Positions 2,838 through 41,082 of a DNA stretch of 41,082 bases are shown one piece after another. The notes beneath the pieces are model-generated. The model was not told the DNA's origin. It made no database searches and was given only the letters and a program-made list of their open reading frames with translations. Source of the stretch: an uncultured Bacilli bacterium (GTDB taxonomy: Bacteria > Bacillota_I > Bacilli_A > RF39 > UBA660); contig CALVQR010000005.1 in NCBI GenBank assembly GCA_944358265.1, positions 1-41,082 on the forward strand. Reading direction: 5' to 3'. Position 1 is the stretch's first letter, and each line of letters starts with the position of its first letter. Both the position numbers and the translations under genes were made by a program.

Positions 2838-5213
2838 TTACATATTTCTAAGTTTTGCAGATAGTTTCTTTTCTACATCATTAATTATTTTATTAAATAC
2901 ACTAATAACTTCTTCATCAGTTAATGTTTTAGTATTATCTTCAAAAGTTAAATTAAATGCGATTGATTTTTTATCATTTTCGATATTTTCTCCAGTATAA
3001 ACATCAAATATTTTAATTTCTTTAAGTAACTTACCACCAGATTTTTTAATTTCTTTTACTAACTTATCTGAAGTCATATCCTTATTAACAATAAATGCTA
3101 AATCTTTTTCTATACTAGGATATTTACTTATTTCTTTATATTTTATGCCACCAACACGATTTTCAAATAATTTATCTAAATTAATTTCCATTACATATAC
3201 TGAATCTTTAGTAACACTTGGATGAAGTTTACCTACTATCCCAACATTTTTACCATTTACTATTATTTCAGCTATTTGTCCATTATGAAACTCTTTAGGA
3301 ATTACATTTGGAACTATAAAACTATAACGATTTTCATATCCTAAATAATGCAATAACTCTTCTACTACACCTTTAACAATATAGAAATCTACTTCTTTTT
3401 CATTACCTAATCCTAAATAATATTTCCCAGTCATAAGTGCTGCTACTTTTTGATTTTCTTTATATTCTTCATCTTTTTTAAAGAAACCTTTACCTATTTC
3501 AAATATAGATATATCTTTATTATTATGAGATTTATTATATTCATAAACTTTGTATAAAGATTGAAGTACACTATATCTTAAAGTATTTCTATCTTCAGTT
3601 ATTGGATCTAGTAAATGAAGTGATTCAAATTCATCTATTGTAAATTTATTTACATCGCTTTCATTAACTAAAACATAAGTTAATGTTTCATTTAATCCAA
3701 GATCATACATTTTATTTCTTATACTTCTTATGGTATTATCATAATCATGATTTTTTTCACTAAACTTAGGAAGAGTCCCTTCTATATTATCAACACCATA
3801 TATACGGCTTACTTCTTCAATTAAATCTTCTTTAATGTTAATATCAAGTCTTCTACTTGGAACACTTACTACTGCATAGTAACTCTTATCTTCATAAGTA
3901 AATCCTAATCTTCTAAACACATCTAATATTTCAGTTTTTGATATATTTGAACCTAATACATCATTAATATTTTTATATTCTATTTTTATTTTTTTATCTT
4001 CTTTTGTAGTCAAATCATAAGTACACATACCTTTAACTATAGTTGCAGAAGCATATTTTTCAAGTAAATGACAAGCTCTATTTATTGCCATATATGTTCT
4101 TTTAGGATCAAGACCTTTTTCAAATCTATTTGATGCTTCACTTCTAACTATTTTTTTAGATGTTTTTCTTACTCTTACTCCATCAAATATTGCAGATTCT
4201 ATTATTATATTTTTAGTATCATTTTCTACTTCTGTAGTAAGACCTCCCATGACACCTGCGAGTCCTACGGCTTCTTTATCATTCGCAATTACAATGTCAT
4301 TATCATCTAATATTCTTTCTACATTATCTAGTGTAGTTAATTTTTCACCATTTAAAGCCATTCTAACTGTAATTGAATCCCCTAATTTATCTGCATCATA
4401 AAAATGAAGCGGTTGCCCTGTTTCTATCATTACGTAATTTGAAATATCAACAACATTATTAATAGGTCTAATTCCAGATGCAATTAATCTATTCTTAATA
4501 AAATTTGGACTTTCTTTTATTTCTACATTTAATACTTTTTTTGCTAAAAATAAACTACAATTATCTGTCTTAATATTTAATTTAAAACTATCATTTATGT
4601 CATTGCCAGATTCAGTATATGATAAATCAATATCTTTTACTTTTTTATCATATATAGCTCCTAGTTCATATGCCATACCTAATATGCTAAGTAGATCTCC
4701 TCTATCTGGTGTTAACTCAAAATCTATTATTTCATCATCAAGACCCAGATATTTTATTGGATCAGTCCCAATTACTGCATCATGCCCTAACTCTGCAATC
4801 CCGTTTTTATCTTCATCTTTCAAAAATTTATTATCAAGGCCAAGTTCTTCAATTGAACAAATCATACCATTTGATTCTACTTTACGTATTTTGCCTTTTT
4901 TTATTGTTCCTCCTGGTAATTTTGCTCCATCAAGTGCAACTATTACTTTAATTTTGCTTCTTACATTAGGCGCACCACAAACAATTTGAAGAACTTCACT
5001 CCCTATATTTACCTTGCAAACATGTAAATGATCTGAATCAGGATGGTCGGTACATGATATTACTTCTCCAATAATAAGATTAGTACAATCTATTAATTTA
5101 GTTGCTTTATCATATTCATTTCCAATTCTTGTCATGTCTTCTGCAATTTGTTTTATTTTTAAATTTTCATCTAAATCTATATAATCTTTTACAAAATTTC
5201 TACTTAATATCAT
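2838..5213 (-). CDS. pheT: Phenylalanyl-tRNA synthetase beta subunit
   Basis: Beta chain of the alpha2-beta2 PheRS that charges tRNA-Phe in the cytoplasm. The 791 residues match the usual bacterial length. In order: an N-terminal tRNA-binding EMAP-like fold (about 40-150, with DHPDSDHLHVCKVN), the B3/B4 editing domain (about 210-380), the B5 domain (about 400-475), a catalytic-like core without catalysis (about 480-680) and a C-terminal ferredoxin-fold anticodon-binding domain (about 700-791, KYPSIEKDLAFIV). The ribosome site AAAGGA sits just before ATG 5213. It starts 2 bases after the pheS stop, so the two subunits are translated together. Control comes from the T-box upstream of the operon. 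Confidence 0.97.
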   Translation of the reverse strand: MILSRNFVKDYIDLDENLKIKQIAEDMTRIGNEYDKATKLIDCTNLIIGEVISCTDHPDSDHLHVCKVNIGSEVLQIVCGAPNVRSKIKVIVALDGAKLPGGTIKKGKIRKVESNGMICSIEELGLDNKFLKDEDKNGIAELGHDAVIGTDPIKYLGLDDEIIDFELTPDRGDLLSILGMAYELGAIYDKKVKDIDLSYTESGNDINDSFKLNIKTDNCSLFLAKKVLNVEIKESPNFIKNRLIASGIRPINNVVDISNYVMIETGQPLHFYDADKLGDSITVRMALNGEKLTTLDNVERILDDNDIVIANDKEAVGLAGVMGGLTTEVENDTKNIIIESAIFDGVRVRKTSKKIVRSEASNRFEKGLDPKRTYMAINRACHLLEKYASATIVKGMCTYDLTTKEDKKIKIEYKNINDVLGSNISKTEILDVFRRLGFTYEDKSYYAVVSVPSRRLDINIKEDLIEEVSRIYGVDNIEGTLPKFSEKNHDYDNTIRSIRNKMYDLGLNETLTYVLVNESDVNKFTIDEFESLHLLDPITEDRNTLRYSVLQSLYKVYEYNKSHNNKDISIFEIGKGFFKKDEEYKENQKVAALMTGKYYLGLGNEKEVDFYIVKGVVEELLHYLGYENRYSFIVPNVIPKEFHNGQIAEIIVNGKNVGIVGKLHPSVTKDSVYVMEINLDKLFENRVGGIKYKEISKYPSIEKDLAFIVNKDMTSDKLVKEIKKSGGKLLKEIKIFDVYTGENIENDKKSIAFNLTFEDNTKTLTDEEVISVFNKIINDVEKKLSAKLRNM

Positions 5214-13357: not shown

Positions 13358-14427
13358 CTATATCAGCATCTGTTCCATATTTTTTTCTAGTTCTTTTAAA
13401 TATTGTTTTAATTTTGTTAATGTTTCAATTTTATTAATATTATCAATATAAGTATTTTTTTGAATATCTTCTACTATCGGTTCTTTTATTATTTCTTTCA
13501 TTAACTTAATTTGCTCGTCTATACTTCTTTTTCCTAATACATATCTATTTACTGCTTTTTTATATGCATTTATATTATAACCACATTCTTTTAATGCTTC
13601 CATTAACTTTATTTGCTCTTTTGCAGTTCTTTTTTCTAATACATCTTTATCTACTGCTATAAGATATGCATAGTCATTATAATCACATTTTTTTAATGTT
13701 TCTATTAACTCAATTTGTTCATTTATACTTCTTTTTTCTAATACATTTCTATCTATTGCTATTTTATATGTATAGTAATTATAATCATAATCTTTTAATG
13801 TTTCTATTAACTCAATTTGTTCATTTATACTTCTTTTTTCTAATACATTTCTATTTATTGCTATAAAATATGCACATTCATGATATTCACATTCTTTTAA
13901 TGCTTCTATTAATTTAATTTTCTCTTTTGCAGTTCTGTTTTCTAATACATCACTATCTACTGCTATTTTATATGTATAATAGTTATAGTTAAATTTTTTT
14001 AATGCTTCCATTAATTTAATTTGCTCGTCTATACTTCTTTTTTCTAATACATCTTTATTTACTATTATTTTGTAAACATTTTCATTATATTTACATTCTT
14101 TTAATGTTTCCATTAATTTAATTTGCTCGTCTGCACTTCTCTTTTTTAATATATCTTTATCTACTGCTATAAGATATGCATCTTCTTGATATTTACAGTC
14201 TTTTAATGTTTCTATTAACTTAATTTGCTCTTTTGCAGTTCTGTTTTCTAATACATCTTTATTTACTATTATTTTGCAAACATTTTCGTTATAATTACAG
14301 TCTTTTAAAATATTCATTATTAAGTCTATATCTTCTTTTGAATATGAATTTAATATATTTAGAAGTTTTTTAATAATTCTATATTTTTAATATTATTTGC
14401 AAGTACATTTATTACATTTACTTTCAT
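13358..14427 (-). CDS. 34-residue tandem-repeat protein, frame broken near its start
   Basis: Seven full copies of a 34-residue helical unit (consensus start RS-x-x-EQIKLMETLK, then Y-x-x-x-AY-x-IAV, then D-x-DVLEK) plus partial units at both ends, probably an alpha-solenoid scaffold. Function unknown. The frame with repeats is open only from ATG 14317, which has no ribosome site. A proper start, ATG 14427 with AGAGGTG at 14434-14440, opens MKVNVINVLANN and stops at 14359-14361. A -1 shift at A-AAA-AAC (14365-14371) joins the two into one sensible protein (LLNILNSYSKEDIDLIM-NILKD). One missing A, a programmed shift, or an assembly error would each explain it. Confidence 0.7.
13529..14242 (-). 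repeat. Seven tandem 102-bp coding repeats
   Basis: Seven back-to-back units of exactly 102 bp (34 codons). Alternate units are more alike (RTAKEQ and RSI(N/D)EQ types), which suggests growth by duplication of neighbouring pairs. Confidence 0.85.
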
Positions 14428-14449: not shown

Positions 14450-14478
14450 ATTATAAATAATATACCAATAAAAATCAA
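14450..14478 (-). promoter_or_regulatory. Promoter of the repeat-protein gene
   Basis: TTGATT (14473-14478), a 17-base spacer and TATAAT (14450-14455), 23 bases before ATG 14427. Its placement supports 14427, not 14317, as the true start. The -35 overlaps the end of the upstream gene. Confidence 0.6.
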
Positions 14479-15566
14479 CGATTTTTTAATAAATATTTTT
14501 TGCTATTAATTATTCTGGCAATATTCTTATTTGTATAATTTTCATCATCTGTTACTTCTTTTGATACTTTTATTTCTTCTGGTAATTTATCTATATCAAT
14601 ATACCCTTCAACTTCAAGTAAAATCAAATCATTATTAAATACATCTACTCTATATAACACATTATTATTTTCAAAACAATATCTATCTTTAATAAGAATA
14701 TCACTTCTTTCAGAAATTAAATCATTATATTCTTTTTCATTAATAATTCTTTCAGTTACTATTTTTTCAGATGGATTATTTGTTTTTGATTTAATTGATA
14801 CATAATATGAAGAACTATTTTCATAATCTATTTTTCTAACCATTACATCTTTTTTATCATTATTTAAATACGTTTGAGTAATTAATAATTTTCTTGCATA
14901 GTTTTTTAAATATTCATTATCTACTTTATCTACTAAAAATTTTCTTTGTTTAACTTTTGATATGTTCCCTCTTACTGCCTTATCAATTTGATAAATAACT
15001 CTATTAATTTTTTCATCAAATGAAGTACTATTATCTATTATAATATGATGTGGAAAACCTAAATAACATTTAAGTGTTTTATCATCCTGCATTATTGCTT
15101 CTTCTTTTGTTTCACTTCTTGCTTTATTATTTTCTAAAGTATAAACATCTGTTCCTTTGGCTGCGGTTAATAAATGAATAGCCATATCATATCTATTAAT
15201 AATTTCTGACTCTGTCATATTAAATTCATCAAGTAATTTATTAAACTCTATCTCACTTACATAAGATTTATTATCAAGTATACTTCTATCATATAAAACT
15301 ATAATATCTTTATTTTTATTATTATTTATATAATTATCAATTAATCTTTCTTTTAAAAGTTGATAAGAAAATACATATCTTTGAAATTCATACATATCTA
15401 TTTTATTTTCACCAAATGGTTTAATACCCATATTTATAAGTTCCGTTGCTGTTTCTGGAACCACTAACACTATAAAACCTTCTTCACTAAATTTTCTTTC
15501 TATTTTAGATATTGATGTACTTTTACCTGCGCAAGGCCCACCAGTTAAAACTATTTTCTTAATCAT
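14475..15566 (-). CDS. P-loop ATPase with C-terminal CYTH-like domain (Ttd14/NadR-like)
   Basis: A 363-residue cytoplasmic protein. The N-terminal half is an AAA_28-type nucleotide kinase fold: Walker A GGPCAGKST at 9-17, VLYDRSILDN for the Walker B/lid region and VPETATELI, as in NadR-type kinases and Ttd14. From about 205 the chain turns into a CYTH/triphosphate-tunnel type barrel (QRKFLVD, then alternating charged strands such as VMVRKI). The real substrate is unknown. GGAGG lies before ATG 15566. Its upstream region carries a 15-bp operator identical to the one in the promoter of the adjacent NrtR-type regulator, so it is probably controlled by that protein. This suggests a role in NAD, nicotinamide riboside or ADP-ribose metabolism. 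Confidence 0.7.
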   Translation of the reverse strand: MIKKIVLTGGPCAGKSTSISKIERKFSEEGFIVLVVPETATELINMGIKPFGENKIDMYEFQRYVFSYQLLKERLIDNYINNNKNKDIIVLYDRSILDNKSYVSEIEFNKLLDEFNMTESEIINRYDMAIHLLTAAKGTDVYTLENNKARSETKEEAIMQDDKTLKCYLGFPHHIIIDNSTSFDEKINRVIYQIDKAVRGNISKVKQRKFLVDKVDNEYLKNYARKLLITQTYLNNDKKDVMVRKIDYENSSSYYVSIKSKTNNPSEKIVTERIINEKEYNDLISERSDILIKDRYCFENNNVLYRVDVFNNDLILLEVEGYIDIDKLPEEIKVSKEVTDDENYTNKNIARIINSKKYLLKNR

Positions 15567-15637
15567 TATTTATTCCTCCATTAAATAGCTTAAATCCTTA
15601 TTATTTTAGTTTATTACTTAATCTATATTTTCTTTAT

Positions 15638-15655
15638 TTACATATATTCCCTCCT
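15638..15655 (-). promoter_or_regulatory. Strong ribosome site followed by AUG-UAA
   Basis: AGGAGGG (15649-15655), five bases, then ATG (15641-15643) followed directly by TAA (15638-15640). It is a start-stop element in the leader of the P-loop/CYTH gene, 75 bases before the real start. It may be a relic of an earlier gene start or a ribosome-stalling control element. Confidence 0.4.
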
Positions 15656-15659
15656 GTTT

Positions 15660-15674
15660 GTGTATTTTATACAC
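15660..15674. promoter_or_regulatory. NrtR-type operator, copy 1
   Basis: The palindrome GTGTAT-TTT-ATACAC, identical to copy 2 at 16383-16397. Read on the minus strand it contains TATAAA (15666-15671), which could be a -10 with TTATTA at 15689-15694, 17 bases away. It lies upstream of the P-loop/CYTH gene. Confidence 0.75.
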
Positions 15675-15710
15675 GTTTAATTTGTTTATAATAATGCATA
15701 TTTTGCATTT

Positions 15711-16358
15711 CTACTTAAATTTATATAATTTTGCAGGTTTTTTACCTTCAAAATTAATTACTTTATTAGTATCTTCTATTACTCCATCATTTATTAATTT
15801 TTTTCTAAAATTTCTTCTATCAAAAGTTTTATTTAATATTGTTTCATATACTTTTTGAAGTTCTGGGAGTGTAAATTCTTTATTAAATAAATTTTTAAGT
15901 ATATCCGTTTCAAATATTTTTTCTTTTAATGTTTCTAACGCATCATTTAATATTTCATTATGATCATATGCAAGATTTGGAATATTATTTATATTAAACC
16001 AATCTGCATTTGAAGTTTTAAGTGTTTCTTTAAGTATATTTACTCTATTTGAATCAATAACACCTATATATGATATAGCAACCATTCTAAAAACGGGAGA
16101 TCTATTTATTTTCCCATATACGTTAACTAAATTAAGACGAATATTTTCTATTCCTGTTTTTTCTTTTAATTCTCTTTTTAAACCATTTTCTAAATCTTCA
16201 TTGTTATATAAAGCTCCTCCTGGAAGCGCCCAATAATCTTTATATGGTTCATTACTTCTTTTAATTAATAATACTTTTGTTATACCCTTTTCTACAGTAA
16301 ATATATTAATAATTAAATGTATACCTTGATTTTTATATAATGGATTATTTACCTGCAT
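15711..16358 (-). CDS. nrtR: Nudix-related transcriptional regulator, NrtR family
   Basis: A 215-residue regulator with an N-terminal Nudix fold (about 1-140) and a C-terminal winged helix (about 145-215, LPELQKVYETIL ... FRKKLINDGVIE), the NrtR layout. The Nudix box runs from G47 to I70 and keeps R62-E63-L64 and E66, but the second Glu of the REUxEE motif is Lys (EKTGI). Many NrtR proteins bind ADP-ribose through this fold without hydrolysing it, releasing their operators. It starts at ATG 16358 after GGTGAT. Its own promoter has the operator inside the spacer, so it should repress itself. It stands next to the P-loop/CYTH gene, which has the same operator. Confidence 0.85.
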   Translation of the reverse strand: MQVNNPLYKNQGIHLIINIFTVEKGITKVLLIKRSNEPYKDYWALPGGALYNNEDLENGLKRELKEKTGIENIRLNLVNVYGKINRSPVFRMVAISYIGVIDSNRVNILKETLKTSNADWFNINNIPNLAYDHNEILNDALETLKEKIFETDILKNLFNKEFTLPELQKVYETILNKTFDRRNFRKKLINDGVIEDTNKVINFEGKKPAKLYKFK

Positions 16359-16375
16359 ATTATCACCATAATTAT

Positions 16376-16404
16376 ATTATATGTGTATTTTATACACTTG
16401 TCAA
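16376..16404 (-). promoter_or_regulatory. nrtR promoter with embedded operator
   Basis: Consensus TTGACA (16399-16404), a 17-base spacer and consensus TATAAT (16376-16381). The operator fills 15 of the 17 spacer bases, so a bound repressor would exclude RNA polymerase. Confidence 0.88.
16383..16397. promoter_or_regulatory. NrtR-type operator, copy 2
   Basis: GTGTAT-TTT-ATACAC, a perfect 6-3-6 inverted repeat identical to copy 1 at 15660-15674. It is in the spacer of the nrtR promoter. Confidence 0.82.

Positions 16405-40054: not shown

Positions 40055-41082
<1,028 letters not shown>

Follow-up and report, generated by a model that had tools for sequence, protein, structure and literature searches.

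A conserved NrtR-family operon in uncultured Bacilli, with paired predicted operators, a Ttd14-like kinase gene and a probable role in pyrimidine/deoxynucleotide salvage

NrtR, the ADP-ribose-responsive repressor of NAD genes described from Shewanella oneidensis (3gz5/3gz6) and Streptococcus sobrinus (SsNrtR), joins a Nudix domain to a winged helix and acts on an autoregulated palindromic operator; its Nudix box is impaired, as is common to other NrtR proteins. AraR (BT0354) of Bacteroides is a member of the same family that was recruited to another pathway, that of pentoses. TTD14 of Drosophila, a protein of channel trafficking described as GTP- and phospholipid-binding (PMC4624897), places a P-loop AAA_28 domain ahead of a CYTH domain, an order also found in other NadR/Ttd14-type AAA_28 proteins and, as a uridine-kinase-type domain followed by a triphosphate-tunnel domain (TTM), in Arabidopsis TTM1/TTM2 (7z67). 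We found no description of a bacterial role for the P-loop/CYTH family in the literature searched. The window, which is the whole 41,082-nucleotide stretch of contig CALVQR010000005.1 that we analyzed, comes from an uncultured Bacilli bacterium and places the two families side by side:

14475 to 15566, minus strand: P-loop/CYTH (Ttd14-like) protein, 363 aa (AAA_28, 6.6e-18 in Pfam; AlphaFold model pLDDT 88.5)
14511 to 14960, minus strand: its C-terminal CYTH/triphosphate-tunnel domain, with EXEXK degraded to xxQxK (match to NE1496, 3typ/2fbl, E 2.3e-9; residues 205-209 in 32 relatives)
14967 to 15566, minus strand: its N-terminal P-loop kinase domain, residues 1-200, with a thymidylate-kinase-like fold (Foldseek against the PDB; invariant GGPxxGK, D93-R94 and D98)
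15638 to 15655, minus strand: AGGAGGG...ATG-TAA, perhaps what is left of the start of a lost gene (from comparison with the L056, L060 and L055 intergenic sequences)
15660 to 15674, no strand assigned: predicted operator O2, the same palindrome as O1, in the intergenic region that separates nrtR from the P-loop/CYTH gene (38 related loci likewise have a second site in the gap separating nrtR from the next gene)
15711 to 16358, minus strand: nrtR-type regulator NrtR-A, 215 aa, with a Nudix-fold sensor and a winged-helix DNA-binding domain (Pfam)
16376 to 16381, minus strand: -10 box TATAAT of nrtR (promoter match)
16383 to 16397, no strand assigned: predicted operator O1, GTGTATTTTATACAC, filling the nrtR promoter spacer (61 of the 80 related loci have a site at the equivalent place)
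16399 to 16404, minus strand: -35 box TTGACA of nrtR (promoter match)

Elsewhere the window encodes a 319-aa protein of degenerate ~33-residue repeats (LETLKDCKYNENVYKIIVNKDVLEKRSIDEQIKLM; 13358-14317) and, at the contig end, a collagen-like GPTGATG repeat protein (40055-41080).

The first-pass annotation had described two identical palindromes, one within the nrtR promoter spacer and one upstream of the P-loop/CYTH gene, and this is borne out in each particular, both copies of GTGTATTTTATACAC being perfect. The nrtR promoter on the minus strand (TTGACA-17-TATAAT) matches the sigma-70 consensus at 12/12 positions just upstream of the nrtR start codon and encloses O1 in its 17-nt spacer; O2 lies past the nrtR stop, 93 nt ahead of the P-loop/CYTH start. 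The palindrome was absent from 60 dinucleotide-preserving shuffles of the window, the degenerate form GYGTN7ACRC matched the window twice against 0.12 expected, and a search through the full 1.0-Mb genome assembly, itself 64% complete, with ≤2 mismatches allowed returned exactly two perfect sites, both at the nrtR locus. An Rfam search at the palindrome sites gave nothing above threshold. We considered O2 as a second promoter and rejected this, the minus strand of the window having no promoter match there. The AGGAGGG-ATG-TAA element adjoins O2, and in relatives the histidine phosphatase gene begins at the corresponding point; the element may therefore be the ruined start of a lost gene.

NrtR-A has the domain architecture of the NrtR family, with a Nudix-fold N-terminal domain (NUDIX, 2.6e-13) and a winged-helix C-terminal domain (NrtR_WHD, 1.6e-20), and a predicted operator in its own promoter. 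Its nearest solved structure is BtAraR (5bs6, E 5e-39), followed by S. oneidensis NrtR (SoNrtR). The Nudix box (GX5EX7REUXEEXGU) is impaired, with the second Glu of the EE pair replaced by Lys67 in 8/8 aligned relatives. In SoNrtR, R41, N43 and K76 contact the phosphates of ADP-ribose (PMC4666351); these residues correspond to R34, N36 and K67 of NrtR-A, and since the phosphate-binding residues of ADP-ribose type are thus kept, a phosphorylated ligand is plausible. In contrast to the NAD-type regulator, NrtR-A has V89 at the position of SoNrtR R98. It also differs from AraR, whose pocket fillers F36 and L67 are replaced by N36 and K67, as in SoNrtR.

A survey of 84,980 species genomes yielded 80 close relatives of NrtR-A (58-70% identity), nearly all from MAGs labelled Bacilli, Tenericutes, Clostridia or similar. 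A P-loop/CYTH gene lies downstream of the regulator in one direction at 43 of these 80 loci, and a histidine phosphatase gene downstream at 32; thymidine kinase accompanies the regulator at 27 (downstream except in three, where it is directly upstream), and dTMP kinase downstream at 3. Nine loci carry an AAA_28 kinase with a small HAD-like protein, some of these kinases being fused to a dGTPase-like HD domain. The alternative kinase is found on its own, following a CYTH domain, or within an HD-CYTH-kinase fusion such as that at locus L100, whose HD part matches dGTP triphosphohydrolase (3e-13). A Pfam check of example partners confirmed TK, His_Phos_1, Thymidylate_kin and AAA_28. The fusions at L100 (5783-8407) and L116 (5167-7791) are 874 aa long (HD dGTPase-like, CYTH-like, AAA_28 kinase) and replace P-loop/CYTH after NrtR-A. 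The commonest gene orders are nrtR-histidine phosphatase-P-loop/CYTH (16 loci), the same with thymidine kinase at the end (10), nrtR-alternative kinase-HAD (9) and nrtR-thymidine kinase-P-loop/CYTH (6). Collapsing the regulators at 80% identity leaves 37 clusters, with P-loop/CYTH in 20, histidine phosphatase in 12 and thymidine kinase in 8, and the partner associations hold after near-identical regulators are merged. In the window, P-loop/CYTH is the only one of these partner genes still beside the regulator; no thymidine kinase turned up in the 64%-complete genome to which the window belongs, and 20 of the 80 loci have no partner of any type. Absence of thymidylate synthase as the reason for salvage gave a mixed result, thyA being present in 8 of 20 genomes.

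Of 147 related genomes, 13 have the P-loop/CYTH gene and 68 have relatives of the regulator; the two genes are neighbors in G010, G033, G037, G041, G085 and on a second contig of the window's genome. This contig (C32 of G000; locus L055) holds a second set of NrtR-A, histidine phosphatase and P-loop/CYTH genes in the window's bin, the nrtR pair being 67% identical. Either paralogy or contamination could explain this set; its base composition and codon usage fit neither decisively. In the same-genus genome G002 (L061, 5353-7831), the synteny of the window (ABC-F ATPase, 97-aa ORF, P-loop protein) recurs without nrtR, and the P-loop protein there, of 201 aa, has no CYTH domain. At L059 (8217-9521) and L015 (788-2125, reverse-complement coordinates), P-loop/CYTH proteins with an N-terminal XRE-type helix-turn-helix occur with no adjoining NrtR. 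Another paralogue, NrtR-B (42-48% identical), is found at the rpoC-rpsL/rpsG region in L081, L082, L085, L088 and L089.

Across loci the site follows the consensus GYGT-N7/8-ACRC. It is present in the nrtR promoter at 56 of the 60 loci with salvage-type partners as against 5 of the 20 without, and TTGAC immediately precedes 61 of 62 nrtR-promoter sites. Of 122 sites in 760 kb, 104 are located either at nrtR itself or in the interval separating it from its target; the other 18 are elsewhere, several of them ahead of thymidine kinase or histidine phosphatase genes. The regulon seems to be local, because thymidine kinase genes away from nrtR have no operator. Where nrtR lies in the S21/GatB-YqeY-like and rplS region, both partners and site are absent, as expected if the two were lost together. 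Both the site and its neighborhood are conserved across the bacterial family, the outcome that the first-pass annotation's own check called for, and nrtR and the P-loop/CYTH gene are very likely both under the control of this regulator; this much of the regulon proposed in the first-pass annotation stands, while its link to NAD is unsupported.

The Ttd14-like domain order of the P-loop/CYTH protein, AAA_28 then CYTH, is recovered by Pfam, profile and fold. Its CYTH domain was found by a 32-row profile against the PDB and by fold; phmmer with the single sequence against the PDB returned noise only. GGPxxGK, D93-R94, D98 and a YTxxNNxxRxE segment are invariant in the aligned relatives, the alignment leaving out the 5 or 6 of 43 proteins with a divergent P-loop. 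The EXEXK motif is treated as defining for CYTH (PMC8615392). It reads xxQxK in 29 of 32 relatives, which makes hydrolysis by this domain doubtful; K209 and E318 are kept, and phosphate binding is plausible. Fold matches to the AlphaFold model begin with the Arabidopsis TTM1 kinase-TTM tandem, the top whole-chain match although with a low overall TM-score (0.26) and an EXEXK motif that is lost here; the NE1496 triphosphatase is next, and the remainder are mainly thymidylate kinases and deoxycytidine kinase. For the P-loop domain, thymidylate kinases form the majority of the top 50 Foldseek PDB matches, together with deoxycytidine kinase (TM about 0.6-0.7 by target), and the D-R motif is shared. 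In sequence, however, the protein falls below the thymidylate kinase cut-off (TIGR00041, 19.3 bits of 83.25) and its relatives match PF02223 mostly below threshold; it is also distinguished by its fused CYTH domain and by a canonical dTMP kinase elsewhere in the genome. A role as a dTMP kinase replacement was rejected, as most carrier genomes retain the canonical enzyme.

The palindromes are probably operators of an NrtR-family repressor whose regulon serves pyrimidine/deoxynucleotide salvage and includes the Ttd14-like kinase. From the sites, their positions and conservation, the gene content and the predicted fold, we infer repression, a class of effector and a class of substrate. An NrtR-A dimer on O1, in the spacer that separates the -35 box from the -10 box, would switch the nrtR promoter off, and a dimer on O2, just before the next gene, would block read-through or close a loop of ~720 bp. 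A phosphorylated effector bound in the catalytically dead Nudix pocket would then release the dimer and permit transcription of the operon, the product of which would be a salvage set made up of the P-loop/CYTH protein, usually a histidine phosphatase and often a thymidine kinase. We count in favor of salvage the skew of promoter sites toward loci with partners (56/60 versus 5/20), the partner genes themselves, the HD domain at L100, the thymidylate kinase/deoxycytidine kinase fold and R34/N36/K67; against it stand the missing thymidine kinase of the window's genome, the 20 of 80 partnerless loci, the failed thymidylate-kinase models and one gene at L151, described below.

The first-pass annotation had read the regulator as an NAD-control protein and the P-loop half as NadR-like, and had predicted action of the Ttd14-like family on nicotinamide riboside, NAD or ADP-ribose compounds. 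We judge it unlikely that NrtR-A senses ADP-ribose or NAD status and that P-loop/CYTH acts on nicotinamide riboside, NMN, NAD or ADP-ribose. Membership in the NrtR family and the kept SoNrtR phosphate contacts do speak for it, but the NAD genes of this bacterial family go with a second regulator, NrtR-C, of about 280 aa. In G037, the NrtR-C cluster comprises a pncA-type isochorismatase, nicotinate phosphoribosyltransferase, a Nudix hydrolase, NAD synthase, a NadD-type adenylyltransferase, PnuC, a genuine NadR, a CinA-type amidase and NAD kinase; this P-loop/CYTH genome has its NadR as a separate gene, adjoining pnuC. Similar clusters, with genes named by eye, occur in L204, L205, L207 and L212; NrtR-C lies within NAD biosynthesis clusters in these loci and in L208. 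In the tree the NrtR-C sequences group together at 100/100 and separately from NrtR-A, with the bootstrap incompletely settled and the divergent row L083 falling within A. Among 88 genomes of the family, treated as independent and with the NrtR-C set taken from the regulator search match list, nadE was found in 26; NrtR-C and nadE occur together in 25, NrtR-C alone in 2, nadE alone in 1 and neither in 60 (p=1e-18), whereas the corresponding counts for NrtR-A are 6, 11, 20 and 51 (p=0.57), and P-loop/CYTH is likewise unassociated with nadE (p=1.0). This last result, with PnuC not enriched (2 of 7 listed P-loop/CYTH genomes), led us to reject P-loop/CYTH as the missing nicotinamide riboside kinase of nadE-less genomes.

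Nor do the operators connect NrtR-A to NAD genes: GYGTN7/8ACRC has zero occurrences in about 120 kb around the NAD loci, which show TGTTATTAAC-like repeats in its place, and we rejected a link through shared operators. No NAD cluster lies beside NrtR-A in the 80 loci. The sole point of contact is L151, where an NMN-adenylyltransferase-like gene (4398-4997) comes first in an operon shared with NrtR-A, histidine phosphatase and P-loop/CYTH and has in its own promoter a site of NrtR-A operator type, in a textbook operator-promoter arrangement; this case favors the NAD reading. So does the AAA_28 membership that P-loop/CYTH shares with the NadR ribosylnicotinamide kinase, as well as a profile comparison with genuine NadR giving 94% probability over the P-loop part. 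Against this, P-loop/CYTH lacks DT(D), the NMN adenylyltransferase domain and the NadR kinase motif WVxDGxR, which was found only in genuine NadR loci; its profile matches no NadR chain in the PDB at E 0.1, and no NadR is among the top 50 Foldseek PDB matches of its model. As a control, the genuine NadR of G037 ranks all NadR entries first by fold and finds four NadR chains by sequence. Together with the Arg98-to-Val89 change in the regulator and partner genes that are salvage kinases, phosphatases and dGTPase-like HD proteins, this makes a nicotinamide link for the NrtR-A regulon unlikely.

It is similarly improbable that P-loop/CYTH is a nucleotide- or polyphosphate-binding regulator, not a metabolic enzyme, in a nucleotide-stress or defense cassette with dGTPase-like and phosphatase parts. 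The loss of EXEXK with invariant basic tunnel residues, the GTP and phospholipid binding of TTD14 and a weak match of the L100 HD domain to anti-phage dGTPase models as well are consistent with such a module; however, the P-loop and D-R motif do not vary at all among 32 relatives, which is what an active kinase would show, an operon of thymidine kinase with an autoregulated repressor looks metabolic, and we saw no mobile or defense neighborhood. Very unlikely is a response to pentose or sugar phosphate of the Bacteroides AraR/XylR kind, for example to deoxyribose or ribose phosphate from nucleoside breakdown: BtAraR is the nearest solved relative and its arabinose contacts R34, R86 and H131 are all present (R34, R86 and H133), but these are largely common to SoNrtR too, the AraR-specific F36 and L67 are replaced by N36 and K67, as in ADP-ribose-binding SoNrtR, and the operons contain no sugar-catabolism genes.

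The NrtR-A regulon is real, conserved and new in content, and our literature search found no paper that combines NrtR with thymidine kinase. Beyond pyrimidine/deoxynucleotide salvage itself, we tentatively suggest that NrtR-A could represent a third functional branch of NrtR besides those of NAD and pentose, in which a Nudix-fold sensor of a (deoxy)nucleotide-type signal would govern the salvage of pyrimidine deoxynucleosides. The Ttd14-like kinase would belong to this salvage set, its CYTH domain perhaps turned into a non-catalytic, phosphate-binding (allosteric) module; if true, the orphan Ttd14/AAA_28-CYTH family would have a pathway for the first time. The name NrtR is routinely taken to mean NAD control, yet here a single bacterial family has two clearly distinct paralogues, NrtR-C with the NAD cluster and NrtR-A with thymidine kinase, phosphatases and the Ttd14-like kinase, which is a caution for automatic annotation. 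The P-loop/CYTH family thereby gains a testable pathway, and the operator is strong enough to serve as a marker of the regulon in uncultured gut Bacilli.
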